From: Hoeflea sp.
GTDB lineage: Bacteria; Pseudomonadota; Alphaproteobacteria; Rhizobiales; Rhizobiaceae
Assembly (NCBI GenBank): GCA_019084245.1
Contig: JAHRFE010000026.1
Span: forward strand, 248,001-312,000
Length of the DNA: 64,000 nucleotides
Reading direction: 5' to 3'
Of the stretch, positions 939-16,511 are shown one piece after another (the stretch's first letter is position 1; every line of letters starts with the position of its first letter). The notes beneath the pieces are model-generated. The model was given only the letters and a program-made list of their open reading frames with translations, did no database searches and was not told where the DNA came from. The translations under genes were made by a program, and so were the position numbers.

Positions 939-1682
939 TCAGGCGACGAGCATCTGGTGGCTGACCAGCGTGCCATGGTGCAGGTGATGCAGTTCATAGC
1001 CCGGCGTGGTCGGGATTGGTGTGTGGCGGGCTCCCGAGAGGGAGAGGCTGAGGCCATGGCCGATGGCGATCGCCGTGCTGGCGGGGACGCCGGCCCAGAG
1101 CGTCTGCATGCCGCGGTGGCTGTGGCCGGCGATGATCCGGCAGACCGGGCTGTCCCTGACGAGGGCTTCGAGATCCCCTGCCCCCTCAAAGCCGCCCTTG
1201 TCGAGATGCGGCGCATGGGTTGAAAACGGCGGGTGATGCAGCGCCAGGATGACAGGGCTCCGGGCGTTTGCGAGCACGCCTCTCAGCCAGTCGAGCCGCG
1301 CCCGGTCGACGCCGCCGCTGGCCCCCGGCAGGTTGCTGTCGAGACCGACCAGCAGCATCGCGCCCACCGGCCGGGCGAAGCTCAGGTGACCGTCGGCAAA
1401 GTCGGCCCATCCGGCGAAGGCTGCCCGGAATTCATCGGCGCGGTCGTGGTTGCCGGACAGGGGTAGAAGCGGCACAGGCGCTTCTGCGAGCAGGTGCATA
1501 ACATGGTCATAGGATCTGGCGCTGCGGTCGATAATGTCGCCGGTGAGCACGATCGCGGCGGGCTTAAGCTCCATCGCCGCGATCATGGCGAAGGCGCGGC
1601 GCAGGGCGTCGGCCGGGTCATGGCACGGGTCGGCGCCGTCGTCGCGCAGATGCGGGTCGGTGATCTGGGCGATCAGCGTCAC
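939..1682 (-). CDS. Class III (GpdQ-like) metallophosphoesterase / phosphodiesterase
   Basis: 247 aa starting at GTG 1682; this GTG overlaps the TGA of the upstream permease gene (GTGA), which marks translational coupling and fixes the start. All signatures of the binuclear calcineurin-like phosphoesterases are visible: D9-P-H11, G48-D49, G77-NHD80, H149-H150 and G186-H-S-H189. There is no signal peptide, so it acts in the cytoplasm. The family includes GpdQ glycerophosphodiesterase and CpdA cAMP phosphodiesterase. Because it is the last gene of an ABC importer operon, hydrolysis of an imported phosphodiester is more likely than cAMP turnover. The substrate is inferred, not shown. Confidence 0.88.
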   Translation of the reverse strand: MTLIAQITDPHLRDDGADPCHDPADALRRAFAMIAAMELKPAAIVLTGDIIDRSARSYDHVMHLLAEAPVPLLPLSGNHDRADEFRAAFAGWADFADGHLSFARPVGAMLLVGLDSNLPGASGGVDRARLDWLRGVLANARSPVILALHHPPFSTHAPHLDKGGFEGAGDLEALVRDSPVCRIIAGHSHRGMQTLWAGVPASTAIAIGHGLSLSLSGARHTPIPTTPGYELHHLHHGTLVSHQMLVA

Positions 1683-3352
1683 AAAAGGTTTCCTCTCCGG
1701 CCCATCAGGCTCAGCACGATCAAAGGCAGCGCCGTGGTTATCAGGATGGTGATAAAGGCCATGGCCATGCCGAGGCCGACAGAGCCCTGCTCGAACTGCC
1801 GCCAGATATAGGTCGATATGGTCGACACGCCAACCGGGGCGACGACGACCGAGGCCACCAGTTCGCGCGTGGCGACCGCAAAGACCAGCAGCATGGCGGC
1901 AAGCAGGCTGGGCGCGATCAGCGGCAGCAGGATGCGGCGGAAGGCCACGAGCGGCGAAGCGCCGAACACCCTTGCCGCGGCCTCGAGATTGTCGCCGATC
2001 TGGTGGAAGGCGGCGGTTGCGTAGCGCACCGGCTGCGGCAGCAGGATGCAGCAATAGGCGAGCAACAGGATCAGCGCGGTGTTGTAGGGCGTCACCGGCA
2101 GCCAGGGCTGGTTCCAGGCGAGGATCAGCCCGACCGCGACGACGATGCCGGGCAGCGCATTGGGCAGGATGGTCAGCACGTCGAGCACGCCGCGCCCCCT
2201 CACCTTGGACTTGACCACCGCATAGGCCGACAGCGCGCCCAGCAGCCCGGTGACGAGGGCCGCGGCAACGCCCAGCGACAGGCTTGTGCCGAGCGCTTTC
2301 AGCGCCCCGGTGGTGTCACCGAGGATGGCTGAGAAATTGCTCAGATCAAGGTTGGCAAGGGTGAGCCCGCCCGAGATCGTCCGCGACAGCGCGGTGGCGA
2401 GAATGGCCAGAAGCGGCAGCCCCGTGGCGGCCACGGCGACAGCCGCAAAAAGGGCCAGGACCGGGAATTTCCAGACCCCGAGATCGCGCTTGGCGGCGTC
2501 CTGCGGCTTGCCGGTGGTTGCCTCGTAGGAGCGCCGGGTCAGGATCCAGCGCTGTAGAAGAAAGGCTCCGAAGGACAGGATGACCAGCACCAGCGACAGG
2601 ATCGCAGCACCCGGCAGGTCGATCGGCCAGTCCGACACACGCAGGTCGATGGCGGTGACCAGTACGTCGAAGCCGGCGCGGCGGCCGAGTGCTGCGGGCG
2701 TGCCGTATTCCTCGATCGACATGGCGAAGACCAGAAGCAGGCTTGCGGCAAGGCCGGGGGTGGAGAGCGGCAGGGTGACGCGCCAGAAGGCCCTGAGCGG
2801 AGACGCGCCAAAGACGCGCGCCACGTCGGCATAGCGCGAACCCACCGTCTCCACCGTGCGCGAGACGGCGAAATAGACCACCGGAAAGGTGTTGAGCGTC
2901 ATCACGAAGACAATGCCCGGAACCGAGAACAGGAAGGCTGCGAGATCGAAGCCGGCCAGTTGTTCGAGATAGCCGCGCGGCTGCAGCGTCATGATCCAGC
3001 CGAGGACCGCGATATAGGGCGGGATCATGAAGGGGATCAGGAACAGCACGTCCCAGATCACCGCGCCGGGCACCCTGAACAGGGCGCGGGCCACCGCCAG
3101 AGGCACCGCGATCAGCGCTGACAGAACCACGACCAGCAGGCCCAGCAGAAGCGTGTTGCCGGTCATGCCGATCAGTTTCGGATCGCCCAGCGCGCCGGCG
3201 AGCGCGGAAAAGGGCGCGGCTAGCGAGCCGCGCCCCAGATGCGGAAACACCGCCTGAAGCAGGATGAACAGAAATGGCACGGCCACGACCACGACGAGAC
3301 CCGCCGCCGCGATGACGACGGACGGGCTGACGGCTTCCCTGGCACGCGCCAT
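1679..3352 (-). CDS. ABC transporter permease, two fused MetI-type domains (phosphonate/Fe3+ type)
   Basis: 557 aa with about twelve hydrophobic segments arranged as two binding-protein-dependent permease halves. EAA-type loops appear near residues 180-200 (ASPLRAFWRVTLPLSTPG) and 465-485 (ASPLVAFRRILLPLIAPS). One polypeptide therefore supplies both membrane domains, as in the FbpB/AfuB iron permeases and the putative 2-aminoethylphosphonate (PhnU2/TIGR03262-type) permeases. It follows the binding-protein gene by 9 bases and overlaps the phosphodiesterase. The linkage to a phosphodiesterase and a PHO-like box favours an organophosphorus substrate over iron, but the sequence alone does not settle this. 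Confidence 0.88.
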   Translation of the reverse strand: MARAREAVSPSVVIAAAGLVVVVAVPFLFILLQAVFPHLGRGSLAAPFSALAGALGDPKLIGMTGNTLLLGLLVVVLSALIAVPLAVARALFRVPGAVIWDVLFLIPFMIPPYIAVLGWIMTLQPRGYLEQLAGFDLAAFLFSVPGIVFVMTLNTFPVVYFAVSRTVETVGSRYADVARVFGASPLRAFWRVTLPLSTPGLAASLLLVFAMSIEEYGTPAALGRRAGFDVLVTAIDLRVSDWPIDLPGAAILSLVLVILSFGAFLLQRWILTRRSYEATTGKPQDAAKRDLGVWKFPVLALFAAVAVAATGLPLLAILATALSRTISGGLTLANLDLSNFSAILGDTTGALKALGTSLSLGVAAALVTGLLGALSAYAVVKSKVRGRGVLDVLTILPNALPGIVVAVGLILAWNQPWLPVTPYNTALILLLAYCCILLPQPVRYATAAFHQIGDNLEAAARVFGASPLVAFRRILLPLIAPSLLAAMLLVFAVATRELVASVVVAPVGVSTISTYIWRQFEQGSVGLGMAMAFITILITTALPLIVLSLMGRRGNLL

Positions 3353-3362
3353 ATTCTTGTCC

Positions 3363-4313
3363 TTACTTGGCGAAGACCTTGGAGAAGGCTTCGAGCGTTT
3401 CGGCGCGCTTGCCGTAGACGGCTTCTGCGTCGACGGGCAGGATCTTGAGGTCGGCGATCAGCGGACGATCCGCCGTCACATCGGCGCGGGCGGGCATCAG
3501 GCTGGTGCCGGCAACGATGGCCTGGCCGGCATCGGACAGGACGTAGTCGACGAACTTCTTCGCATCGTCCTGGTTTTTCGACCAGTTGAGGATCATCACC
3601 GGGCGCGGCGCGATGACGGTGCCGGTTTCGGGGAAGATGACCTCGATCGATTCACCCTTGGCCTTGCCATTCAATGAGATGTAGTCGACCGCGCCGAAGA
3701 CGGCGGCCTTGGCGCCCTGCAGAACCGGATTGAGCGCTTCGGCATTGGCGCCTGCGACAATCGCGCCATTGGCGGCGAGGCTCTCGAACAGGCCCATGCC
3801 GTCGGCCGAAAGCGCCGAGACCAGCTCGAAGGCCGAGCCGGACTGCGCCGGATCGGGCAGGTTGACCAGATCCTTGTATTCGGGCTTGGCGAGATCGGCC
3901 CATTCGGCAGGCTTCGGCGTGCCCGAAGCGGGGTTCCAGGCAATGGCAAGCGCTGCCACGCCCTGGGCCACGGCGGTCTCGGTCTTCAGGAAGTCCGGAA
4001 CGGTGGCTGCATTGGGGCTGGTGTAGGGCACGAGCCAGCCGCGTTCGGCGAAATCGGTGGCGGTGTCCCAGGAAGCAGAGATCAGCACGTCGACCACAGG
4101 ATTGGAGGCCTCGGCCTCGATGCGGGCCATGACCTTGCCGGTCGTGGCCTGGAAGAACTCGACCTTGACGCCGGTCTCTTCGGTGAAGCCGGCGGCGAGC
4201 TTTTCGATCAGCGAGGCGGGGCCGGCCGTGTAGACGGTGACATCGGCAAGGGCGGAGCCGGCGGTCAGCAGGGCTGCGGCGGTGACGCCGGCGCGGAGCA
4301 TGGTTTTCAGCAT
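3363..4313 (-). CDS. ABC transporter periplasmic substrate-binding protein
   Basis: 316 aa. The chosen ATG at 4313 begins a typical Sec signal peptide (residues 1-23, ending SALA|D); the longer upstream reading would bury it inside the ATPase gene. The mature protein begins DVTVYTAGPASLIEKL and has the FbpA/PotD-like layout (FXATTGKVMARIEAE, then ADVLISA-type and late NW segments) seen in binding proteins of the putative 2-aminoethylphosphonate and ferric-ion classes. The paired C-terminal tyrosines of true ferric-binding proteins are not clearly present, which weakens an iron role. It sits between its ATPase and permease genes. Confidence 0.88.
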   Translation of the reverse strand: MLKTMLRAGVTAAALLTAGSALADVTVYTAGPASLIEKLAAGFTEETGVKVEFFQATTGKVMARIEAEASNPVVDVLISASWDTATDFAERGWLVPYTSPNAATVPDFLKTETAVAQGVAALAIAWNPASGTPKPAEWADLAKPEYKDLVNLPDPAQSGSAFELVSALSADGMGLFESLAANGAIVAGANAEALNPVLQGAKAAVFGAVDYISLNGKAKGESIEVIFPETGTVIAPRPVMILNWSKNQDDAKKFVDYVLSDAGQAIVAGTSLMPARADVTADRPLIADLKILPVDAEAVYGKRAETLEAFSKVFAK

Positions 4314-4323
4314 GGGTTGATCC

Positions 4324-5406
4324 TCAGTGGACAGGGGCTTGCGTCCGGGCCGGAAACCAGCGCAGACGATCGGAGACAATCTCCAACCCGATGCGCTCCC
4401 CAAGGCGCATGCGGGTATCACTTGAAATCTGGACCGTCTGGGCGGGGGCGGCCTGGTTGAGCCTGACGGTCACGGCATAGGCCGTGTCGCGGTACTGCAC
4501 CGCCATGACCTCGCCCGACAGCGCGGTTGTCCCGAAATCGGCGATCCGGAGCGCGCGCGGGGTGACCAGCACTTCGGCCGCTGAAGCCTCAGGCCCGCCC
4601 ATGGGACCAAGCGCGTGGCCGCCGTAGGACCAGCCGCCCGTGTCGCGCGTCAGCGACAGCACCGCGCCCAGGCGCAGGAACTCGGCCACCTTGGGACTGG
4701 CGGGGTGCTCGACAAGATCCTCGGGCGCTGCCAGCTGGGCGATCTGCCCTGCTTCCATCACCGCGACCTGGTCAGCCAGCGTCAGCGCCTCAGACTGGTC
4801 GTGCGTGACATAGATTGCCGTCAGCCCGAGGCCCCGGATCAGAGCGCCGAGCTCGGCCACCATGGTCTCGCGCAACTCGCGGTCGAGATTGGACAAAGGC
4901 TCGTCAAACAGCACGATGCGGGGTTCGGCGACGATGGCGCGGGCGATGGCGACGCGTTGCTGCTGGCCGCCCGACAGCGCCGAGGGGCTGCGATCGGCCA
5001 TGGCGCTGAGGCCGACGCGGTCAAGGGCTGCCTTGACGCGGGCCTGGCGCTCGGCACCGTTGATGCCGGCCATTTCCAGCGGGAACGCGACATTGCCGGC
5101 CACGCTCAGATGCGGCCAGAGCGCGTAATCCTGGAATACCATGCCGAGGCCGCGCTTTTCGGGCGGCACGAACAGGCTGGGACAGGCCACCATCTGGCCG
5201 TCGATGGCTATTTCACCGGAGGTTGGCGACAACAGGCCCGCCACCAGCCTGAGCAGCGTGGTCTTGCCGCAACCGGACGGGCCCAGAAGCGCCAGCGTCT
5301 GGCCTTGAGGCATCGAAACATCAATGCCGCGAAGGACCTCGGTCTTGCCATAGGCCATGTAGATCTGCCGCGCAGAAATTGCGTTACCGGCGCGATCGCC
5401 CGTCAT
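4324..5406 (-). CDS. ABC transporter ATP-binding protein (phosphonate/Fe3+/spermidine type)
   Basis: 360 aa from ATG 5406; a TTG at 5421 would add five residues. Walker A GPSGCGKTT lies at residues 42-50, the signature is LSGGQQQR, and Walker B is IVLFDEPLSNLD, followed by an H-loop in YVTHDQSEA. A C-terminal TOBE-like regulatory domain (about residues 270-355) is typical of the CysA/PotA/FbpC group. It is the first gene of the operon ATPase, binding protein, permease, phosphodiesterase. A PHO-box-like direct repeat is centred about 78 bases upstream of the ATG, suggesting phosphate-starvation control. Confidence 0.9.
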   Translation of the reverse strand: MTGDRAGNAISARQIYMAYGKTEVLRGIDVSMPQGQTLALLGPSGCGKTTLLRLVAGLLSPTSGEIAIDGQMVACPSLFVPPEKRGLGMVFQDYALWPHLSVAGNVAFPLEMAGINGAERQARVKAALDRVGLSAMADRSPSALSGGQQQRVAIARAIVAEPRIVLFDEPLSNLDRELRETMVAELGALIRGLGLTAIYVTHDQSEALTLADQVAVMEAGQIAQLAAPEDLVEHPASPKVAEFLRLGAVLSLTRDTGGWSYGGHALGPMGGPEASAAEVLVTPRALRIADFGTTALSGEVMAVQYRDTAYAVTVRLNQAAPAQTVQISSDTRMRLGERIGLEIVSDRLRWFPARTQAPVH

Positions 5407-5472
5407 GTTTTCAATGGACAAAAGTCGTACACCCCCACGTGGAGAGTTGGCCTTAGTCGCCCTGCATGAAGC

Positions 5473-5494
5473 TTTGATGACAGATCTGTGTCAG
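5473..5494 (-). promoter_or_regulatory. PHO-box-like PhoB binding site
   Basis: Read on the minus strand, the site is two 11-base direct repeats: CTGACACAGAT and CTGTCATCAAA. The second half begins with a perfect CTGTCAT, and the first matches at five of seven positions with the correct 11-base period. It lies in the 210-base divergent region between the ABC operon and the secreted pyrophosphatase, oriented toward the ABC operon. PhoB acting here is inferred from the motif. Confidence 0.65.
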
Positions 5495-5616
5495 GGCGGC
5501 CGGCTCTGACTTCACCCACCGTGATGTGCAGCCGGGCGCTGCAAAGCCCTGTGTGTAATCCGCCCGTCACACAAGCTTGGTAGCGGAGGGCGACCAAGAA
5601 CCAAGGAGATCCCCCC

Positions 5617-6324
5617 GTGACCAAGACCCTGATGCTGACCGGAGCCGCCTGTCTCGCCCTGATGACAACCATGGCCCATGCCGAACCGCTTGGCGGACTG
5701 GCCTTCTCCGAGACGACGCCGCATTCGGCCGCGATGACGCAGAAGGACGATTTCACCATCGTCGGCACCGACGATCTGATGGAGCTCACGGCGATCAACG
5801 AGGACGGCACAGTTCGCGCCATCGTCGAAATCCCGACCGGCACCTCGGCCAAGTGGGAAGTCAGCAAGGACGATCCGAAGGCCGTGTACTGGGAGTACAA
5901 GAACGACAAGCCGCGGGTGGTGAACTATCTCGGCTATCCGGGCAATTACGGCGCCATCCCCGGCACCGCCCTGCCCAAGGAACTGGGCGGCGACGGCGAT
6001 CCGCTCGACGTGATCGTGCTCGGCCAGGCCGTGCCGCGCGGCGAAGTGGTGGATGTGCGTGTGATCGGTGTGCTGAAGATGCTCGACGGCGGCGAACAGG
6101 ACGACAAGCTGATCGCCGTGCTCGCCAAGGACTCGCCCTTTGCCCATATCGAAAGCATGGCGCAGCTCGACGCCGAGTATCCCGGCGTGAGCCAGATCAT
6201 CGACCTGTGGTTTGCCAACTACAAGGGACCTGACGGCGGCATGGAAGGCAAAGGCTTCGAGGACGCCGCCACGGCCCGCACCGTGCTTGAAGCCGCGGCC
6301 GCGAATTTCGAGGCCGGACGCTGA
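5617..6324 (+). CDS. ppa: Inorganic pyrophosphatase, family I, exported form
   Basis: 235 aa from GTG 5617 with a strong AAGGAG ribosome site 7-9 bases upstream. Residues 1-22 are a Sec signal peptide (hydrophobic core, ending AHA|EP), which ordinary cytoplasmic Ppa lacks. Family I active-site elements follow: EIPTGTSAKWE (72-81), YPGNYGAIPGT (107-117) and the metal-binding GDGDPLDVIV (125-134, aspartates 126, 128 and 131). It hydrolyses PPi to orthophosphate, here most likely in the periplasm. Divergent from a PHO-box ABC operon, so it fits phosphate scavenging. A separate cytoplasmic Ppa is expected elsewhere in the genome. Confidence 0.9.
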   Translation: MTKTLMLTGAACLALMTTMAHAEPLGGLAFSETTPHSAAMTQKDDFTIVGTDDLMELTAINEDGTVRAIVEIPTGTSAKWEVSKDDPKAVYWEYKNDKPRVVNYLGYPGNYGAIPGTALPKELGGDGDPLDVIVLGQAVPRGEVVDVRVIGVLKMLDGGEQDDKLIAVLAKDSPFAHIESMAQLDAEYPGVSQIIDLWFANYKGPDGGMEGKGFEDAATARTVLEAAAANFEAGR

Positions 6325-6654: not shown

Positions 6655-6899
6655 GAAGCAAGCGGGCGATCGGCGGCATGGTGCTGCGCGCGCTCTCCAT
6701 GGGCCTGGGCGTGATGATCGTGCTGCCGGTGGTGCTGGCGCTCGGCGCGCTGGCGGTCGGGCATCTGGCGGGCGGCTGCGGACCGGGCAGTTCCGGCGGC
6801 TGCGAAATGGGCGCGGCGGGGCTTGCGCTCTATGCCGCAATTCCGAGTTTTGTGCTGGGCGCGGGCTGGTCGGTGTTCCGCGACTTGAGGAAGCGGTGA
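6651..6899 (+). CDS. Small two-helix membrane protein, function unknown
   Basis: 82 aa from ATG 6651, coupled to the lipoprotein gene by an ATGA overlap. Two hydrophobic segments (about residues 17-40 and 55-72) flank a glycine/cysteine loop, GGCGPGSSGGCEMG, and the C-terminus is basic (RDLRKR). The convergent neighbour at 6931-7140 has the same plan with YGCEFNPGGC in the loop, so they may be diverged paralogues. No function is assigned. Confidence 0.6.
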   Translation: MRSKRAIGGMVLRALSMGLGVMIVLPVVLALGALAVGHLAGGCGPGSSGGCEMGAAGLALYAAIPSFVLGAGWSVFRDLRKR

Positions 6900-6930
6900 G
6901 CCATCGGGCCGGCGAGATCGTGGGAATGCA

Positions 6931-7140
6931 TCAGTGTTTCGACCTGCCGAGCCAGATCAGCCATAGACCCAGCGCCACGGGCAGCGACAGGACCAGCATC
7001 GCGTCCAGCGTCGGCCTTGGCAGAATTCTTGAGCAGCCGCCGGGGTTGAACTCGCAACCATAAAGATCCAGTAGCCACCAGATACCGATGGCGCCCAGGA
7101 CCACCAGGACCCCCAGGCCTTGCAGGGCGCGTCGCCACAT
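6931..7140 (-). CDS. Small two-helix membrane protein with a Cys-containing loop
   Basis: 69 aa from ATG 7140, with AAGGAG 8-13 bases upstream supporting the start. Hydrophobic segments at about residues 7-25 and 46-65 flank the loop YGCEFNPGGCSR. The layout (helix, GC...GGC loop, helix, basic tail) matches the facing gene at 6651-6899. The two conserved loop cysteines could form a periplasmic disulfide. No known family recognised. Confidence 0.6.
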   Translation of the reverse strand: MWRRALQGLGVLVVLGAIGIWWLLDLYGCEFNPGGCSRILPRPTLDAMLVLSLPVALGLWLIWLGRSKH

Positions 7141-7499
7141 CTGAGGGCTCCTTGTTGCAGATCGGTTTGTTCGCCGTCCGGACTGATGCCGAAAGCGGCA
7201 GCGTGTCTTCCTATGAAGCGAAAATCCGCGGGTCTGGCAAGGCAGGAATTTCGTCAGGTGACTGGCGCCCTGGCGCACCGCCTGGTGGCGGGCCGGCCCG
7301 GGCCATCTGACTGTCCGCAACAAGCGGAGCAATCGCCGCAAGCCAACCCGGCTGCAGGCGTCTGCCCGCCACGCGTCACCTATTCACCCCGCCCGCTCTT
7401 CATTTCGCCAAAGGATTGGTCTAAAGGGACGCATGAGAGGTCTATCGGGCCGGCGGTGCGCCGACCGGGGCCTGGGTTTGTGACACCGCGGGAGATTTA
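7141..7499. other. Intergenic region upstream of ppiD
   Basis: This 359-base gap lies between two divergent genes and should hold both promoters. I see a GGAGAT ribosome site just before ppiD, but no convincing RNA gene, terminator or known operator. Reading frames crossing it have no ribosome site and look accidental. Confidence 0.4.
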
Positions 7500-9389
7500 A
7501 TGCTTGATTCATTGCGAAGGGGCGCCAAGAGCTGGGTCGCCAAGGTTCTTCTGCTGCTTCTGGTCGCCTCTTTCGGCGTCTGGGGGATTTCGGGCTCGAT
7601 CCTGAACGCGGGCAACACTGCGGTGATCACCGTCGGCGACACGATCGTGACGCCGAACGAGTTTCGCCTGGCCTATGACCGGCAGATGGCGGTTGTCGGA
7701 CGGCAGCTTGGTACGCGGCTGACTGCCGAGCAGGCGCGCGCCTTTGGCATTGAAAACCAGGTCTACGGGCAGCTGATCGCTGGTGCTGCGCTGGATGAAC
7801 AGGCGCGCACCATGAATCTGGGGCTTTCGGATGACAGGCTCGCGGCGCTGATTGCCGAGGACCCGGCATTTCATGATTTCAACGGCCGGTTCGACCGCGG
7901 CAATTTCCAGCGCGTGCTGGCTTCGGTCGGCATGAGCGAGGAAGACTATCTCAAGAGCCGCGGCCAGGTTGCGGTGAGAACCCAGATCGTCGAGGCGATC
8001 GCCGACGGGTTTAAGGCGCCTGATGCGCTGATTGCGGCGCTGGCGCGCTATGAGGCGGCGACCCGCGATGTCTCCTACCTGCTTCTGACCCCGTCGAGCA
8101 TCGATCCGGTGGCAGCGCCCAGCGACAGCGAGCTTGCCGCCTGGTTCGAGGAGAACAAGGCCAATTATGCGGCGCCCGAATACCGCAAGATCACCTATGT
8201 GAAACTGCAGAACGAGGACATCGCCGATCCCGAGGCGATTTCCGACGACGCCGCGCGCGCCGATTACGAGGCCCGCAAGGACCGCTACACAACAGCCGAG
8301 ACCCGCACCGTGGACCAGCTGGTGTTTGCCGACCGGGCGGCCGCGGATGCGGCGGCAGCAGCGCTTGTCGCGGGGACGAGTTTTGACGAACTGGTCACGG
8401 AACAGGGCCGCAGCGCGGCCGATATCAGGATCGGCTCGTTCAGCAAGGCCGCGATGCCCGACCAGACGCTGGCCGACGCCGCCTTTGCGGTGAGCCAAGC
8501 GGGCGGCACGACGCCGGTGGTTGACGGCCAGTTCGGTCCGGTGATCCTGAGGGTCGCCGAGATCACCCCGGAATCCTCACAGAGCTTCGAGGATGTCGAG
8601 GCCGAGATCCGCCAGGAGCTGGCGCTCAACCAGGCCGCTCAGGTGCTGCTCGACGTGCACGACGCCTATGAGGACGCCCGCGCCAGTGGCATGACGCTGA
8701 TCGAGGCTGCGACTCAGCAGAAGCTGTCGCCAGTGACAGTGGAAGCCGTTGACCGCAGCGGCCGGGCGACGGACGGCACGGTGCTGTCAGACCTGCCCGA
8801 ATCGCAGCAATTGCTGCGCGACGCCTTTGAGGCGGAACCGGGTATCGAAGCTCCGCCGCTGAGCATGGACGATGGAGGCTTCCTCTGGTTTGAAGTGGTT
8901 GACGTGACCCCTGCCCGCGACCGCACGCTCGATGAAGTGCGCGATCAGGTTGCCAACGACTGGACCGAGATGAAGACGCTCGAGGCCTTGGGCGCCAAGG
9001 CCACGGAATTGAAGGAACGCCTGGAAAAGGGCGCGGACCTCGCCAGTATCGCCGAAGAGCTGTCGGTTGCGGTCGAGACCAAATTCTCGCTCAGCCGCGG
9101 CAGCGCCGACGGGGTGTTCGGCGAGGCCGCCGTGGCCTCGGCCTTTTCCGGACCTTCGGGCGTGGTGGCTGTCGCCAATGACGCATCGGGCGACAACAAG
9201 ATCCTGCTCCAGGTGACATCGGTGAATGACGCGGCGTCGGTGACGGCGGATGCGGTGGGAGCAGACCAGCGCGCCCAGGTGTCGCAGCAGATCGCCGACG
9301 ACATTCTCGACCAGATGGTGGCGCGGCTGCAGGCCCAATACGGCGTCTCGGTCAACCAGCAACTGGCCGAGCGCGCGCTGGCGTTCTAA
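7500..9389 (+). CDS. ppiD: Membrane-anchored peptidyl-prolyl isomerase, SurA/PpiD-like
   Basis: 629 aa from ATG 7500 with GGAGAT upstream. One N-terminal transmembrane helix (about residues 13-32) anchors a large periplasmic part. A SurA-N type chaperone region comes first (about 35-190), then a parvulin-like segment (about 230-365, with [21 protein letters not shown]...), then a long helical C-terminal region. This is the PpiD layout: folding of secreted and outer-membrane proteins at the inner membrane. It starts a plus-strand run of six genes and is separated from trpD by 25 bases, a standard rhizobial order. Confidence 0.88.
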
Positions 9390-10453: not shown

Positions 10454-11275
10454 ATGAGCGACATTCTTGCGAAGATCGAAGCCTACAAGCGCGACGAGAT
10501 TGCCGCCGCCAAGGCCGCCATCCCAATGGCCGAGATCGTGGCGCGTGCGCGTGACGCCTCCCCGCCGCGCGGCTTTGTGGCGGCACTTGAGGCCAAGCAC
10601 GAGGCCGGGGGGTACGCGCTGATTGCCGAAATCAAGAAGGCGAGCCCGTCGAAAGGCCTGATCCGCCCCGATTTCGATCCGCCGGCGCTGGCGAAAGCCT
10701 ATGAGGCCGGCGGCGCTGCCTGCCTGTCGGTGCTGACCGATGCGCCGTCGTTCCAGGGTGCGCCGGAGTTTCTGACCTCGGCGCGCGACGCCTGCGCCCT
10801 GCCCGCGCTGCGCAAGGATTTCATGTTCGAGCCCTACCAGGTGCACGAGGCCCGCGCCTGGGGCGCCGACGCGATCCTGATCATCATGGCCTCGCTCGAT
10901 GATGATGACGCGAGACGGCTTGAGGACGAGGCGCACGGGCTCGGCATGGCAGCGCTGATCGAGGTGCATGACGAGGCCGAGATGGAGCGGGCGCTGAAGC
11001 TCGACAGCCGGTTGATCGGCGTCAACAACCGCAATCTGCGCACCTTCGAGGTGTCGCTCAACGTGTCCGAGCGGCTGGCGGGGATGGTGCCCGAGGGGCG
11101 CATTCTGGTGGGCGAAAGCGGGATCAGTTCATTCGAGGACTGCGAGCGGCTGTCGGCAAGCCGCATCAAGACATTTCTGGTGGGCGAGAGCCTAATGCGG
11201 CAAGCGGACGTTGCCGCCGCCACGCGGGCGCTGCTGACTGGAAAACCCACGGACGGGACATCGAATGGCAAATGA
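10454..11275 (+). CDS. trpC: Indole-3-glycerol-phosphate synthase
   Basis: 273 aa from ATG 10454. A TIM-barrel enzyme that closes the indole ring in tryptophan synthesis. Conserved segments: [13 protein letters not shown] (catalytic Lys), [25 protein letters not shown] and VGESGI. It is monofunctional, with no TrpF fusion. Its last 11 bases overlap the start of moaC, so translation is likely coupled. Confidence 0.97.
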
Positions 11276-11771
11276 GAACGAACCGCGGCTGACGCATCTG
11301 GCCGCCGATGGCTCGGCCGCCATGGTCGATGTCGGCGACAAGGACGACACGGTGCGCATCGCCGAGGCCGAGGGCTTTGTGCGGATGAAGCCCGAGACGC
11401 TTGAGCTGATCCTCCAGGGCAACATGAAGAAGGGCGACGTGATCGGCGCCGCACGGATTGCCGGCATCATGGCGGCCAAGCAGACCGCAAATCTCATTCC
11501 CCTCTGCCATCCGCTGGCGCTGACCAGGGTGAGTGTCGAGATCGAGGCCGACGAGGCCCTGCCGGGCTTGCGGGTCCGCACGCTCGCCAAGCTCACCGGC
11601 AAGACCGGCGTCGAAATGGAGGCGCTGACGGCGGCGTCGGTGACGTGCCTGACGATCTACGACATGGCCAAGGCCGTGGACCGCGGCATGGAGATCGGCG
11701 GCATCCGGGTGCTGGCCAAATCCGGCGGCAAGTCCGGCGACTGGACCATGACTTCCGAAGGAGTGCGCTGA
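11265..11771 (+). CDS. moaC: Cyclic pyranopterin monophosphate synthase
   Basis: 168 aa. MoaC converts the MoaA product to cyclic pyranopterin monophosphate in molybdenum cofactor synthesis. Signature segments [11 protein letters not shown] and [26 protein letters not shown] are intact. Its stop codon shares a base with the moeA start (TGATG), so the two Moco genes are coupled. Confidence 0.97.
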
Positions 11772-12979
11772 TGGCGCTGATGCCGGTTGATGACGCGCTG
11801 GCGCGCATTCTTGTGGGCGCCGCTCCCCGCGGTGAGCCCGAGATGCTGCCGCTCAACCAGTGTTTCGACCGTGTGCTGGCGCGGGACCTCGCAGCGCTGC
11901 GCACCCATCCACCGTTCGAAGCCTCGGCGATGGACGGATATGCGGTGCGCGCGGCTGACGCGGTGGCCGGCGCAAGGCTCAGGCTTCAGGGCGAATCCGC
12001 CGCTGGCCATGGCTATGAAGGCAAGCTTGAACCCTGCTCGGCCATCCGGATCTTTACCGGCGCCCCGGTTCCCGCGGGCGCTGATGCCGTCCTTATCCAG
12101 GAAATGACCGAGCGGCTCGACGATGGGACGGTTCGGATCAACGAGGAGGCAGTTCCCGGCCGGCACATCCGCAAGGCAGGCGTCGATTTCGAAACAGGCA
12201 AGGTCGGGCTAGAGGCCGGACGCCTGCTTGATGCGGGCGCCATCACCTTTGCCGCGGCGATGAACCACGCCATATTGCCGATCGCGCGCCGGCCGAAAGT
12301 GGCGGTTCTCGCCACTGGCGACGAGTTGCGCCTGCCCGGCGAAAGCCTCGGCCCGGACCAGATCATTGCGTCGAACACATTCGGCGTGGCCGCGCTGGCG
12401 CACGGCGCGGGCGCCGAGGTGATCGATCTCGGCATTGCGGCCGACCGGCTGGAAGCGCTCAATACCGCGCTTGATTCGGCGATTGCCCAGGACGCCGATG
12501 TTCTCGTGACCATCGGCGGCGCCTCGGTGGGCGATCATGATCTGGTCCAGAAGGCGATGCTGGCGCGCGGCATGGCGCTCGATTTCTGGAAGATCGCGAT
12601 GCGCCCCGGCAAGCCGCTGATGTCGGGCCGCCTGGGCGGAATGCACGTGATCGGGCTGCCCGGAAACCCGGCGTCAAGCCTCGTCTGCGCGCATCTGTTC
12701 CTCGAGCCGCTGGTCACACGGCTGGCCGGGCGGCCAGACCCGCAACGGTTCCAAAAGGCAATTCTCGCCAATGAGTTGCCGGAAAATGATCAACGTCAGG
12801 ATTATCTGCGCGGCGACCTTCAGGTTACCGACAAGGGGCTGATCGCCACGCCGATGGCGCGGCAGGATTCGTCCTTGATGAAAGTGTTCTCCGACGCGCG
12901 CTGCCTGATCATCCGACCGCCCTTTGCGCCCGCAGCCAAGGCCGGATCGGTCTGCGATGTGCTGGTTTTGCGCCCCTGA
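11771..12979 (+). CDS. moeA: Molybdopterin molybdenumtransferase
   Basis: 402 aa from ATG 11771. MoeA inserts molybdate into adenylylated molybdopterin. Recognisable parts: the N-terminal SAMDGYAV segment, the MoCF-binding domain with TIGGASVGDHDLVQ, MRPGKPLMSGR and the GLPGNPASS loop. Length is normal. It ends 109 bases before lexA, which has its own SOS-type promoter. Confidence 0.96.
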   Translation: MALMPVDDALARILVGAAPRGEPEMLPLNQCFDRVLARDLAALRTHPPFEASAMDGYAVRAADAVAGARLRLQGESAAGHGYEGKLEPCSAIRIFTGAPVPAGADAVLIQEMTERLDDGTVRINEEAVPGRHIRKAGVDFETGKVGLEAGRLLDAGAITFAAAMNHAILPIARRPKVAVLATGDELRLPGESLGPDQIIASNTFGVAALAHGAGAEVIDLGIAADRLEALNTALDSAIAQDADVLVTIGGASVGDHDLVQKAMLARGMALDFWKIAMRPGKPLMSGRLGGMHVIGLPGNPASSLVCAHLFLEPLVTRLAGRPDPQRFQKAILANELPENDQRQDYLRGDLQVTDKGLIATPMARQDSSLMKVFSDARCLIIRPPFAPAAKAGSVCDVLVLRP

Positions 12980-12980
12980 T

Positions 12981-13050
12981 GTTCTTTCATTGTTTCTTTA
13001 CCCCTTGCGGAACACATATGGAACATGATACCTAGGTTCTGGGTTTGTTT
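12981..13050. promoter_or_regulatory. Three LexA/SOS-type boxes upstream of lexA
   Basis: The alphaproteobacterial SOS box is GTTC-N7-GTTC. One perfect copy lies in reverse at 13010-13024 (GAAC-N7-GAAC). Two near copies, GTTC-N7-GTTT, lie at 12981-12995 and 13036-13050. They fill the 109-base gap between moeA and lexA, where the lexA promoter must be, so LexA autorepression is expected. Confidence 0.85.
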
Positions 13051-13088
13051 CATACGGCTTTCACGCCGGCCGCAGGGGTGCTGCAACT

Positions 13089-13805
13089 ATGCTGACGCGC
13101 AAACAACACGAGCTTCTCCTCTTCATCAACGAGCGGATGAAGGAAAGCGGCATTCCGCCTTCCTTCGACGAGATGAAGGATGCGCTTGATCTGGCGTCCA
13201 AATCCGGCATTCACCGGCTGATCACGGCGCTCGAGGAACGCGGCTTCATTCGAAGGCTCCCGAACCGTGCCCGCGCGCTTGAAGTGATCCGACTGCCCGA
13301 CAGCTATCAGGCCAATCTGCAGCCGCGGCGCGGGTTCTCGCCCAGCGTCATCGAGGGCAGCCTTGGCAAGACTCCGGAGCCGGTGCGCCGCGCCGAGCCC
13401 GCCAATGACGAGCCCTCCGAGGTCACCCAGGTGCCGATGATGGGCCGCATCGCCGCCGGCGTACCGATCTCGGCGATCCAGAACAACACCCACAGCATCA
13501 CCGTTCCATCGGAAATGATCGGCCCGGGCGAGCATTATGCGCTCGAGGTCAAGGGCGATTCGATGATCGAGGCCGGGATCTTCGACGGCGACACGGTGGT
13601 GATCCGCAATGTCTCGAGCGCAAGCCCGGGCGACATCATCGTGGCGCTGGTGGACGATGAAGAGGCAACGCTGAAGCGGTTCCGCCGCAAGGGCGCCTCG
13701 ATTGCGCTTGAAGCGGCCAACCCTGCCTATGAGACCCGCATTTTCGGGCCGGACCGGGTGAAGGTTCAGGGCAAGCTGGTCGGACTGATCCGCCGCTATC
13801 ATTGA
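13089..13805 (+). CDS. lexA: LexA SOS repressor
   Basis: 238 aa. Winged-helix DNA-binding domain at residues 1-65 ([13 protein letters not shown]...). The self-cleavage Ala-Gly bond lies in RIAAGVPIS, the catalytic serine in GDSMIEAG and the catalytic lysine in EATLKRF. It represses DNA-damage genes until RecA filaments trigger its cleavage. SOS boxes in its own promoter indicate autoregulation. A linker of about 50 residues (roughly 80-120) is longer than in E. coli, as is usual in Rhizobiales. Confidence 0.97.
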
Positions 13806-13819
13806 GGGGGTGGGCCTGT

Positions 13820-13871
13820 CCTGTTGATCCCTGCTGGGACCACCTGGCCCTGTTGATCCCCGCCGGGACCA
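13820..13871. repeat. Two-copy tandem repeat, 23-bp unit, after lexA
   Basis: Copies at 13820-13842 and 13849-13871 (period 29) read CCTGTTGATCCCTGCTGGGA plus CCA and the same with two T-to-C changes. Each carries a short dyad (TCCC-N4-GGGA). The pair fills the convergent gap between lexA and comEC. Origin unknown; it may be a remnant of a dispersed repeat. Confidence 0.6.
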
Positions 13872-13893
13872 TGGGCGGGCGCCTCGTGCAACC

Positions 13894-16431
13894 TCAGTTC
13901 GGCAGATCATAGCTTCGGCTGCGCCAGTCATAGTAGCGCTGGATGGTCCAGGGACGGATGACGCCTTCAAGTGACGCATCGATAGTGAAGCCGGGCCTCG
14001 TGGTGCGGGGATGATCCGGGCTCGCCGTTGAGCGCACCGGAACCGACCTCATGCGGATAGCCAGCGAGCCGGTTACGCGAAGGGTGCGGGAGGTGACAAG
14101 CGTGGCGCCCGAGTGGCAGGCGCGCATGCGGACGGGAATGGCGAGTATGACCAGATCCGCCCTGTCGCAAGCCGCGCCAATCAGGGCGGCCTCCCGGATG
14201 GCGATGATTTTGGCCCGATGATGAATGGCGGCGCAGATGCCGCGGCTTGCGCAATGGAACCGGGACCGTTCGCCCGCGGCCGAGGCCAGCAACCGGTCGA
14301 GGATTTTCGGATCGATAGCCGCGTCGGAGCCTTCGACTTCGGACGTTTGGGCTTCAGAGCCTCGAGCGTCGGATCTCGCGGTTCCGGAGCTTTCGGTTCC
14401 TGATCCGGCGGTTCGGGTTTCGGCGGATTTGAGCGAGACCGGCGCGATATGCGGCTTGTCCCTGAGCGCAGTCTGCCATTGCCGGAACAGAAACTCGCTT
14501 GGTCTTGCCGCATTGCTGGCAAGCCCCTCCGGACCTGCGAGCGCCACCAGAGCGCCGTCCTCGCTGATCAGGATGTCGGGGCCATGATCCCTGAAAGGCG
14601 GCAAGGCAAGCACCGCACCCAACAAGATCAGCGCGAATCCGCCGAGCCGCAGCCAGCTTCTCAGGAACACCAGAAGGATCAAGCCGCCAGACGCGGCCAG
14701 GGTCGCCTGCAGCGGGATCTGTCCGACGACGATGTCGCCGCCGAGGCTTTCCACGTATTGCGCCGTCCAGATCACACCTTCAAGCCCCTTGCCCATCAGC
14801 CTGAGCGGCCATTCGTCAAGACCGAAGGGCATCAGGAGCAGCGCCAGCACGCCTGCGGGCATCACCACGAAGGTGACGAGCGGCATGGCCAGCACATTGG
14901 CCAGAACTCCGTTACCGGCCAGGCGGTGGAAATGGTGGGCAGAGAACAGGCCGGTCGCAAGCCCGGCCACCAGAGCGGTGATCGCCAGGCCAAGAATCGC
15001 CTTGACGAACAGGATGATCACCCGGCCCGGCATTGAACCCGCCAGCAGACCGGGCTCGCCCTGTCTGGCGCGTTTGCGCGCAGCCAACACGGCATAGGCC
15101 GAGATCAGCGCCGCAGTGGCGGCAAAGGACATCTGGAACCCGGGACCCACCACCGCGGACGGCGTGAGCAGAATGATCGCCATCGCGGCCAGCGCGACAT
15201 TGCGCATGGTCAGCGCCGGACGGTCGGCCAGCACGGCGACCAGCATGATGACGAGCATCACCCAGGCGCGCTGGGTGGCGACGCTGGCGCCGGAAATCAT
15301 CAGATAGGCGGTGGCCGCCAGCAAGGCGCCAACGGCGGCGATTTTCTTGACCGGCCAGGCTTCAACCACTGCCGGCGCCGCCGCCAGGGCCGTGCGGATG
15401 AGCATGTAGAGCGTCCCAGCGGCAAGCGCCATGTGAAGCCCGGAAATCGCCAGGATATGGGCCAGTCCGGTGGCGCGAAGCGAATCAACGGCCGCCTCGG
15501 AGATGCCGCGCCGGTCGGAGACGGCGAGCGTTGCGGCAATGCCGCCGGGATCGCCCGGTAGAACCGAGCGGATCCGTGCCGAGATCTGTTCCCTGACCGT
15601 GCGCAAGCCATGCCTGAACGCTTGCAACCGGCTCGGCGGAGGTTGTGCGAGCGGGTCGGCGGCCTGCGGCGCCCGGTAGAAGAAGCCATGCGCGCCGATG
15701 CCGTCGATGAACGCCCGGAAGGCAAAATCATAGCCGCCCGGCATCACCGGTCCTGATGGCGAGGACAGCCGCGCCCGGCCCGATATTGCGGCCCCGACCG
15801 GCAGCGGCGGATGCGGCGCGCGCGCGACCAGACGGACGCGTTCGGGCGGTCGCCCGAGTTCCGGATCGGCGGTCGAGATCACCCGGATCAGATAACGCAC
15901 CCTGCCCCCGGCATCGAATTCGCGCGCCTCGACACTTCCGGTGATCCCGGTTGTCACATCCTGGTCGAGCAGCACCGTGCCGGACCGCTGCTCTATACTG
16001 CCCGCAATAGCGCCCGCGAACAGGGCCGCGGCAAAGCCTCCGGCGCGGGCGAGGCCGATATGGCGTGCGCCTGCAAACAGCGCCAGGATCAGCGCGACGG
16101 CAAAACCGCAAAGCGGGCCCAAAAGCCCTGGATCCCGCTGCGCCCCATAGAACAGTCCGGCGCCCGCACCCATCGCCACCGGCAGAAACAGGAACGCGAG
16201 CCCCCGGTCGGCTTCGGTTTCAGCAGCGGCTGTGAGCGCTGTCCAAAGACGGGCTGGAGCGGAACCTGCACGGTCCGACCGCAGCATCACCGGGGTCGTG
16301 GCGGTCAGCCTCTGCTGGGGACGAAGCGTCAGATCCGACGGGCCTGCGCCGGGGCGCATCCGCGCGAGGCTCAGGGGCGCTTGAGCCTCGACCGTCTCAT
16401 GCTCCTGCCTGCTGCGGTTCGCCTGCATCAT
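13894..16431 (-). CDS. comEC: ComEC/Rec2-family DNA-uptake channel-like membrane protein
   Basis: 845 aa from ATG 16431, chosen because GAGG lies 6-9 bases upstream; a TTG at 16488 would extend it by 19 residues. A DUF4131-type N-terminal domain with membrane helices comes first, then the polytopic Competence domain containing GLAHILAISGLHMALAAG. In the C-terminal part the metallo-beta-lactamase HxHxDH motif is not seen, and a stretch near residues 670-715 is a Ser/Thr/Glu/Gly-rich linker (TAGSGTESSGTARSD). The family transports single-stranded DNA across the inner membrane in competent bacteria. Rhizobial copies are often kept without proven competence. Confidence 0.88.
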   Translation of the reverse strand: MMQANRSRQEHETVEAQAPLSLARMRPGAGPSDLTLRPQQRLTATTPVMLRSDRAGSAPARLWTALTAAAETEADRGLAFLFLPVAMGAGAGLFYGAQRDPGLLGPLCGFAVALILALFAGARHIGLARAGGFAAALFAGAIAGSIEQRSGTVLLDQDVTTGITGSVEAREFDAGGRVRYLIRVISTADPELGRPPERVRLVARAPHPPLPVGAAISGRARLSSPSGPVMPGGYDFAFRAFIDGIGAHGFFYRAPQAADPLAQPPPSRLQAFRHGLRTVREQISARIRSVLPGDPGGIAATLAVSDRRGISEAAVDSLRATGLAHILAISGLHMALAAGTLYMLIRTALAAAPAVVEAWPVKKIAAVGALLAATAYLMISGASVATQRAWVMLVIMLVAVLADRPALTMRNVALAAMAIILLTPSAVVGPGFQMSFAATAALISAYAVLAARKRARQGEPGLLAGSMPGRVIILFVKAILGLAITALVAGLATGLFSAHHFHRLAGNGVLANVLAMPLVTFVVMPAGVLALLLMPFGLDEWPLRLMGKGLEGVIWTAQYVESLGGDIVVGQIPLQATLAASGGLILLVFLRSWLRLGGFALILLGAVLALPPFRDHGPDILISEDGALVALAGPEGLASNAARPSEFLFRQWQTALRDKPHIAPVSLKSAETRTAGSGTESSGTARSDARGSEAQTSEVEGSDAAIDPKILDRLLASAAGERSRFHCASRGICAAIHHRAKIIAIREAALIGAACDRADLVILAIPVRMRACHSGATLVTSRTLRVTGSLAIRMRSVPVRSTASPDHPRTTRPGFTIDASLEGVIRPWTIQRYYDWRSRSYDLPN

Positions 16432-16511
16432 GCACGCCTCGCTTGAAGCGTCGCAGATTACACCCGGACTTCCACTCAGTGCCACCAAAAATTGCGGGCC
16501 GATGGAACGCT

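Follow-up and report, generated by a model that had tools for sequence, protein, structure and literature searches.

A PHO-box-preceded ABC importer operon with a GpdQ-like phosphodiesterase in Hoeflea: a putative organophosphate transporter annotated as an iron or 2-aminoethylphosphonate system

A 64,000-bp stretch of the Hoeflea sp. genome (GenBank assembly GCA_019084245.1, contig JAHRFE010000026.1, positions 248,001 to 312,000; hereafter the window, numbered from its first letter) carries an operon for an ATP-binding cassette (ABC) importer that ends in a phosphodiesterase (PDE) gene. Reading along the minus strand from position 5406, the order is ATPase, periplasmic binding protein (SBP), fused permease, and PDE, and the operon spans 939–5406; a gene for a family I inorganic pyrophosphatase (PPA) with a signal-peptide-like start is divergent from it (Table 1). 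This gene set had been named in an earlier, sequence-only reading of the locus and was confirmed by profile scans and motif inspection. Database records label the orthologous permease "iron ABC transporter permease," and the best NCBIfam matches of the importer are the 2-aminoethylphosphonate (AEP) models phnS2, PhnU2, and PhnT2, each far under the AEP cutoff (96 of 393, 149 of 593, and 286 of 458 bits, respectively). The Ugp models of NCBIfam gave no match for the SBP and weak ones for the permease (31 and 21 bits). The host genome (G000) is 4.82 Mb; its nearest named relative at the importer locus is a Hoeflea metagenome-assembled genome (L061), whose SBP is 94% identical.

Table 1. Features of the importer-pyrophosphatase region (window coordinates)
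Feature	Coordinates	Strand	Evidence or detail
ABC importer ATPase, PhnT2/UgpC/PotA-like	4324..5406	minus	PF00005, 128.4 bits; TIGR03265, 286.5 versus cutoff 457.7
SBP, SBP_bac_6/11 class, relative of AfuA, P5PA, and PhnS	3363..4313	minus	profile and structure matches
Fused two-domain ABC permease	1679..3352	minus	two PF00528 (BPD_transp_1) stretches; TIGR03262, 149.2 versus cutoff 593.25
GpdQ-like calcineurin-like binuclear PDE	939..1682	minus	PF00149, motifs, fold match
Importer-operon PHO promoter	5454..5494	minus	three 11-base-spaced units, 5494–5466; TA of presumed −10 at 5455–5454
Pyrophosphatase PHO promoter	5553..5582	plus	box 5553–5570 (10/14); TA 5581–5582
Presumed periplasmic family I inorganic pyrophosphatase (PPA)	5617..6324	plus	PF00719, 120.9 bits; signal-peptide-like start, motifs

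A PHO box is defined as two 11-nucleotide direct repeats (PMC4415409). The array upstream of the importer has the minus-strand sequence CTGACAC-N4-CTGTCAT-N4-GCTTCAT. The box alone is weakly specific: the window holds two sites that match at 12 of 14 positions and five that match at 11. In an alignment of 48 orthologue upstream regions, positions +28 and +29, counted from the start of the box, form a TA (T in 42 regions, A in 43) that would be a −10 element; a TA at a fixed distance is expected where a PHO box replaces a −35 element. Units 1 and 2 of the window array form the top-scoring pair (12/14) and lack the TA, which is present for units 2 and 3 (5483–5466, 11/14). A box of at least 10/14 together with the TA occurs at exactly two sites in the 64 kb: 5483–5466 on the minus strand, pointing at the ABC operon, and 5553–5570 on the plus strand, pointing at the pyrophosphatase gene. 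The TA rule was derived from an orthologue set that includes the window and was afterwards applied to the window. Ten first-order Markov shuffles yielded 0, 2, 0, 0, 0, 2, 1, 0, 0, and 0 such composite sites; since two of them also gave two, the count by itself is unremarkable, and the remarkable point is that both sites lie within one 210-bp intergenic region, each facing its own gene. The 22-base PHO repeat reported earlier at 5473–5494 was thus nearly right in position but incomplete: it lacked the third unit, and the pyrophosphatase-side site was missed.

The promoter arrangement is widely conserved. A scan of named genomes kept the best 80 of 113 confirmed relatives (66 to 94% identity). 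We scored the best forward box in the 150 bp preceding the point where the ATPase match begins in tblastn for 79 upstream regions, comprising the window and 78 of 82 loci (L126, L139, and L140 had no ATPase match; L142 lies on the reverse strand). At thresholds of at least 10, 11, 12, and 13 of 14, boxes were present in 75, 67, 45, and 23 regions, compared to 4, 1, 0, and 0 in the reverse-orientation control and 4.9, 0.9, 0.5, and 0.3% of background windows. When the set was thinned to 52 dissimilar upstreams, 42 reached 11/14; the ten others scored 10/14 (L062, L064, L078, L094, L105, and L138), 9/14 (L069 and L070), or 8/14 (L067 and L127). The pyrophosphatase-side promoter recurs in L061 (9/14) and L064 (11/14), with the TA at equal distance, and much of the remaining intergenic sequence differs. 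Genome-wide, the PHO pattern with at most two mismatches occurs 34 times in G000, versus once for the reversed control. We scanned ten ORFs downstream of such sites, picked from 30 loci: three encode well-known Pho-type proteins (a PHO4/Pit transporter, the polyphosphate kinase Ppk, and a binding protein of the PhnD type), and seven belong to other families or had no match. Box conservation in orthologues, the fixed TA, and the composite sites support PHO control of the importer operon, which the sequence-only reading had proposed; the secreted pyrophosphatase is probably also under PHO control. The promoter facing the pyrophosphatase and the conservation among orthologues are new relative to that reading and strengthen the observation.

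The GTG start of the PDE gene (1682–1680) overlaps the permease TGA (1681–1679) in a 4-base GTGA (context TTGTGACG). This TGTGAC overlap is shared by L061, L062, and a Paracoccus aminophilus plasmid locus (L208), and Roseicyclus L068 has an ATGA version; the recurrence of the overlap bears out the coupling of permease and PDE claimed from the window. L064, which has a PDE remnant, and L063, which has no PDE, retain TTGTGACC at the permease stop. The PDE possesses all five metal motifs (D-x-H, GD, GNHD, HHPP, and GHSH) and, by inspection, no signal peptide. Its AlphaFold model, built from only four sequences, has a predicted local distance difference test (pLDDT) score of 69.6, and its nearest folds are GpdQ, then Rv0805. 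Motifs and fold thus match the class III phosphodiesterases GpdQ (of Enterobacter aerogenes), Rv0805, and SpdA; the window protein differs in having only 22 to 26% identity to the fold matches (Foldseek rows), in falling below the curated SpdA and CpdA cutoffs (its best NCBIfam match is SpdA, 80.6 of 400 bits), and in being encoded by the last gene of an importer operon.

We surveyed the slot downstream of the permease at the 78 loci where 350 bp or more of sequence follows the permease gene (four of the 82 were dropped), clustering same-strand open reading frames (ORFs) that start within 250 bp and naming families after scanning between one and seven members of each cluster. The clusters were TypA GTPase (11 loci), PhoD (8 loci, interrupted in L101), a metallo-β-lactamase (MBL)-fold protein (7), M24 peptidase (6), and the GpdQ-like PDE (3). 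Other loci held a four-locus cluster including an alpha/beta hydrolase ORF, small groups, or single ORFs, and 17 had no ORF in the slot. The TypA and M24 genes have the look of normal chromosomal neighbors. PhoD would act outside the cytoplasm, since the one member inspected (L092) has a twin-arginine start. The MBL-fold proteins, whose starts lie −26 to +26 from the permease stop, share an invariant HxHxDH motif; four are from Ancylobacter, two from Rhizobium, and one from Endobacterium, at loci that are scattered in the SBP tree, and an eighth homologue sits elsewhere in L093. ORFs of at least 150 amino acids starting at −30 to +40 are found at 17 loci, and in 10 of these the product is the PDE or the MBL-fold protein; the other seven comprise three TypA, one alpha/beta hydrolase, two without a Pfam match, and an L064 ORF, also without a match, that lies over the PDE remnant. 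Occupation of one coupled position by different families would be expected of an importer whose cargo has to be hydrolyzed in the cytoplasm.

L063 (Frigidibacter albus), which gave no PDE match by tblastn, carries pstSCAB-phoU at 10973–16432, 336 bp after the importer (PBP_like_2, two phosphate-type permeases, ATPase, and PhoU).

The binding protein itself argues against iron. The Fe ligands of FbpA (His9, Glu57, Tyr195, and Tyr196) are kept at none of the four positions: in an alignment to Haemophilus influenzae FbpA (2o6a), they fall on Pro32, Ala80, Val209, and Asp210. A ferric importer that has come under Pho control, in line with the gene names used in S. meliloti, would explain the iron label of the permease records, and two papers count "iron transporters" among the members of the S. 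meliloti Pho regulon (PMC4415409, PMC8829014); given the lost ligands and the pst, phoD, and PDE neighbors, we regard this explanation as very improbable, and AfuA was itself once misannotated as an iron protein (PMC4546632). Iron as cargo is therefore rejected, and the earlier preference for phosphorus over iron is upheld by the missing FbpA ligands and the pstSCAB-phoU and phoD neighbors.

Among solved structures, the best sequence matches of the SBP are 8x1a (VcA0625), AfuA, and P5PA, followed by the PhnS-type 4r6y and several ferric proteins. Structure 8x1a is titled as glucose-6-phosphate (G6P)-binding VcA0625; AfuA binds G6P, fructose-6-phosphate, and sedoheptulose-7-phosphate, and P5PA binds pyridoxal 5′-phosphate (PLP). 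Published contact residues (PMC4546632, PMC8427247) were mapped by hand through HMMER alignments, the AfuA chain numbering being that of the paper plus 2. The phosphate-holding positions of AfuA and P5PA are mostly kept: Ser/Thr37 corresponds to Thr58, Gly38 to Gly59, Thr60 to Ser81, Ser148 to Ser158, Gly149 to Gly159, and Thr150 to Ser160, while AfuA Gly185 aligns to Asn190 in a low-confidence stretch. AfuA sugar contacts are replaced (Tyr103 by Ala116, His205 by Asp210, Asp206 by Tyr211, Glu229 by Ala235, and Gln269 by Met273), and they include three residues, His205, Asp206, and Glu229, whose mutation abolishes AfuA binding (PMC4546632). Direct Afu-type sugar-phosphate transport is rejected because these residues are gone. 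Positions 58, 59, 81, 116, 158, 159, 210, 211, and 235 of the SBP are invariant in 39 sequences, and position 160 is Ser or Ala; the importer group probably has one kind of ligand in common, since its contact positions do not vary.

A wider phosphomonoester explanation is unlikely, though it has points in its favor: the importer would be AfuABC-like, carrying a sugar phosphate or another phosphorylated metabolite, and the PDE and MBL genes would be unrelated phosphorus-starvation passengers. The solved proteins closest to the SBP in sequence are binders of G6P or PLP, the phosphate-contact positions are largely common to AfuA and P5PA, and most orthologues do without a PDE. This explanation does not account for the loss of the AfuA sugar and ring contacts in the HMMER alignment, nor for the use of the same coupled slot by two unrelated metallohydrolase families. 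Compared with AfuABC of A. pleuropneumoniae and VcA0625, with which it shares the SBP fold class and most phosphate-contact positions, the window system has replaced sugar contacts, PHO boxes, the order ATPase-SBP-permease, and, in some lineages, a linked hydrolase.

The reading we favor, with moderate confidence, is that of a Pho-controlled organophosphate importer, misannotated as an iron or AEP system, whose downstream hydrolases are exchangeable between lineages and whose cargo is most likely a phosphodiester; a glycerophosphodiester is plausible as the specific cargo. Under phosphate starvation, PhoB would activate the two divergent promoters. The binding protein would hold the phosphate group of a small organophosphate in an anion site (Thr58-Gly59, Ser81, and Ser158-Gly159) and recognize the remainder of the ligand with residues unlike those of sugar-phosphate binders (Ala116, Asp210, Tyr211, Ala235, and Met273). 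The molecule would enter the cytoplasm intact and be cut there by the translationally coupled GpdQ-like PDE, after which ordinary phosphatases could free phosphate from the product; in other lineages, an MBL-fold protein would take the place of the PDE in the downstream slot. From the second promoter, a periplasmic pyrophosphatase would convert pyrophosphate to phosphate for ordinary phosphate uptake.

Several observations weigh against this reading. An intact PDE is present at 3 of the 78 surveyed loci (L061, L062, and L068) and a decayed remnant at one (L064); at the remaining 74, tblastn (E up to 1e-6) detected none. L064 retains the importer with only parts of the PDE gene, and L063 retains it with no PDE at all. 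At 60 of the 78 loci, none of the three hydrolases (PDE, MBL, and PhoD) is found, intact or interrupted. The cargo need not be a diester, because 74 loci have no detected PDE and most have none of the three hydrolases; the same 74 loci argue against the PDE as a defining feature of the transporter class. Absence of the PDE from homologous loci, one of the findings that the sequence-only reading named as speaking against it, is largely what we observed, offset by the MBL-fold protein at 7 loci and PhoD at 8. MBL-fold proteins are common in general, and the closest solved relatives of those in the slot are, at low scores, beta-CASP nucleases, the best being the ribonuclease TTHA0252. In the fold search with the SBP model (pLDDT 85.5), Foldseek interleaved ferric proteins with phosphate-ester binders: 1y4t ranked third and FutA1 seventh, the PhnS-type protein ninth and P5PA tenth, with template modeling scores of about 0.7 to 0.8 throughout, so that fold alone cannot choose the ligand class. 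L208, an additional plasmid orthologue with an intact PDE, has the full operon, and yet none of the boxes in the 373 bp preceding its ATPase gene as annotated reaches 10/14. Use of periplasmic pyrophosphate fits the PPA motifs and signal-like start, but the pairing of PPA with the importer is rare. Finally, the carbon-phosphorus lyase component PhnJ is encoded in 23 of 25 importer-bearing genomes, G000 included, and for that reason a phosphonate cargo is possible.

An importer of the PhnS/AepX type for AEP or a phosphonate ester would agree with the NCBIfam best matches as well as with PhnJ, and GpdQ is able to act on phosphonate esters. We consider it rather improbable, given that all three importer components fall far under the AEP cutoffs and that neither the 10 neighbor ORFs scanned nor a further set of 10 scanned ORFs contained a phosphonate enzyme. 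AEP cargo via PhnW is weakened in particular: PhnW exceeds its cutoff in 3 of the 25 importer genomes, and not in G000. Only the cutoff is informative here, because every one of the 25 importer genomes and each of 14 control genomes has sub-cutoff PhnW matches. AepXVW and PhnSTUV, the AEP importers whose models lie nearest to the window importer, differ from it in the same two respects, component scores and PhnW; AepX is induced by phosphate depletion through PhoBR (PMC8316502).

A still less probable cargo, which we would rate as a slim chance, is nucleotide derived: 2′,3′-cyclic nucleotides or short oligonucleotides released when RNA is degraded, with an SpdA-like PDE or a beta-CASP-like MBL enzyme to cleave them. 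It would make sense of SpdA as the best NCBIfam match of the PDE and of TTHA0252 as the best solved relative of the MBL protein. Those matches are far under cutoff or weak, the nearest folds of the PDE are GpdQ, and none of the listed solved SBP relatives is named as a nucleotide binder.

With phosphodiester import as the favored reading, a broader and more tentative proposal, which we hold at somewhat less than an even chance, is that this uncharacterized PhoB-controlled importer family, present in many alphaproteobacterial genera under "iron" and "AEP" labels, imports intact phosphodiesters; that unrelated cytoplasmic PDEs in the coupled slot, GpdQ-like or MBL-fold according to lineage, report the cargo chemistry; and that a PHO-driven periplasmic pyrophosphatase supplies a second phosphorus source in Hoeflea and one Pseudotabrizicola. 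If the family carries organophosphates, many alphaproteobacterial iron transport annotations are wrong, and an organic-phosphorus uptake route in soil and marine bacteria has been overlooked. If the slot is exchangeable, a genuine substrate would have to bind to the SBP and be cleaved by the GpdQ-like as well as the MBL-fold enzymes. Pyrophosphate would join the forms of phosphorus scavenged if the secreted pyrophosphatase is indeed PHO driven.

In a tree of 90 SBPs, the window, L061, L062, L068, and L208, together with the PDE remnant locus L064 and PDE-less L063, form one clade of seven (support 87/80, a node not starred in the tree), within which both Hoeflea rows group with four from Rhodobacterales (100/97) and Paracoccus lies outside. 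Because all PDE-bearing rows fall in this one clade, the tree suggests that the PDE was gained once and lost on later occasions, with a transfer into Hoeflea. The PDE is an accessory specific to this clade, and the importer is the conserved core; the PDE as a defining partner of the importer is rejected, being intact at so few loci and confined to a single clade.

The PPA has the signature motifs DGDPxD, YPxNYG, and DDK, and its catalytic residues were compared with those of the E. coli enzyme. By inspection, the signal-peptide-like start ends AHA-EP, from which export is presumed. A close homologue (83 to 95%) is divergent from the importer at only 2 of 82 loci (L061 and L064), and we reject the PPA as a general partner of the importer; pyrophosphatase matches of 29 to 34% at other loci are, by position, different pyrophosphatases. 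The PPA was found in 1 of 240 class genomes (its own) and 2 of 299 phylum genomes (its own included). Among the literature matches listed, none mentions a secreted, periplasmic, or extracellular pyrophosphatase. Only two plasmid records match the PPA (about 63% identity), both from Vibrio pelagius; in the one inspected (L214, 5083–6627), the homologue makes up the C-terminal region of a larger protein that also contains a ParBc_2 (putative ParB-like nuclease) domain.

UgpBAEC-UgpQ is a precedent for phosphorus-ester import under Pho control together with a phosphodiesterase, which there belongs to another superfamily; the window importer differs in its lack of an SBP match to Ugp and its weak permease matches. 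Among the papers listed in literature searches, none concerned the window operon itself, as judged by title or abstract start. Pairing of a PDE with an ABC importer under phosphorus stress is already known as an observation: in Phaeobacter sp. MED193, a predicted PDE and "sugar" ABC importer proteins with near-consecutive tags (MED193_11288, 11293, and 11308) are phosphorus-stress induced, and in a phoB mutant the PDE and ATPase were not detected and the SBP still rose (PMC10132767). That transporter is annotated differently from the window importer, to which it is likened by description. In S. meliloti, the iron-type ABC genes SMc04316-SMc04317 have a Pho box and are highly induced by phosphorus stress (PMC8829014); they are likened to the window importer by description only.

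A gene-order search matched PDE homologues in 105 of 199 genomes. An importer ATPase or permease match lies within about 1.5 kb in 14 of 30 listed homologue loci, the window included, a raw count given without a background rate. The neighboring SBP in L198, L199, and L205 is SBP_bac_6, and these SBP-linked operons have no box of at least 12/14, which indicates that PDE-importer pairing is not always phosphorus controlled. Among the nine loci L198 to L206, only L201 has such a box, upstream of the PDE. At that locus (6810–8673), the PDE homologue has a 13/14 PHO box just upstream and is divergent from an ABC ATPase.

An SBP match at E ≤1e-60 was found in 18 of 394 family genomes. With the threshold at 1e-30, 28 of 385 class genomes had a match, and in three (its own included) the identity is at least 60%; a close form of the importer is present in 2 of 18 same-genus genomes examined (G000 and G004). 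Records from Klebsiella, Sodalis, and Comamonas likewise contain orthologues, with 55 to 57% identity. On a Comamonas antarctica plasmid (L210), an operon with a 56% SBP orthologue lies behind a porin gene, near ppk2.

More distant paralogues also lie near PHO-like boxes. The host genome has a second SBP-permease pair (contig C16; L187, 7805–10448) with about 34% SBP identity and a 12/14 PHO box directly upstream, which is possibly the counterpart of S. meliloti SMc04316-SMc04317, genes that may match this pair instead of the window importer. Boxes of at least 12/14 are present in 9 of the 11 paralogue loci L187 to L197, L192 and L195 being without one. In S. meliloti Ak57, a replicon labelled pSymB (L212, 6854–12778) carries a paralogue operon of SBP (38%), permease, and ATPase, with a HAD-IIB/sucrose-phosphatase-like hydrolase gene next and an 11/14 PHO-like box. 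In the window itself, an ORF at 32–556 on the minus strand has a signal-like start and a CarboxypepD_reg match under the cutoff (21 versus 32.3 bits), and a counterpart is also found downstream of the operon in L061.

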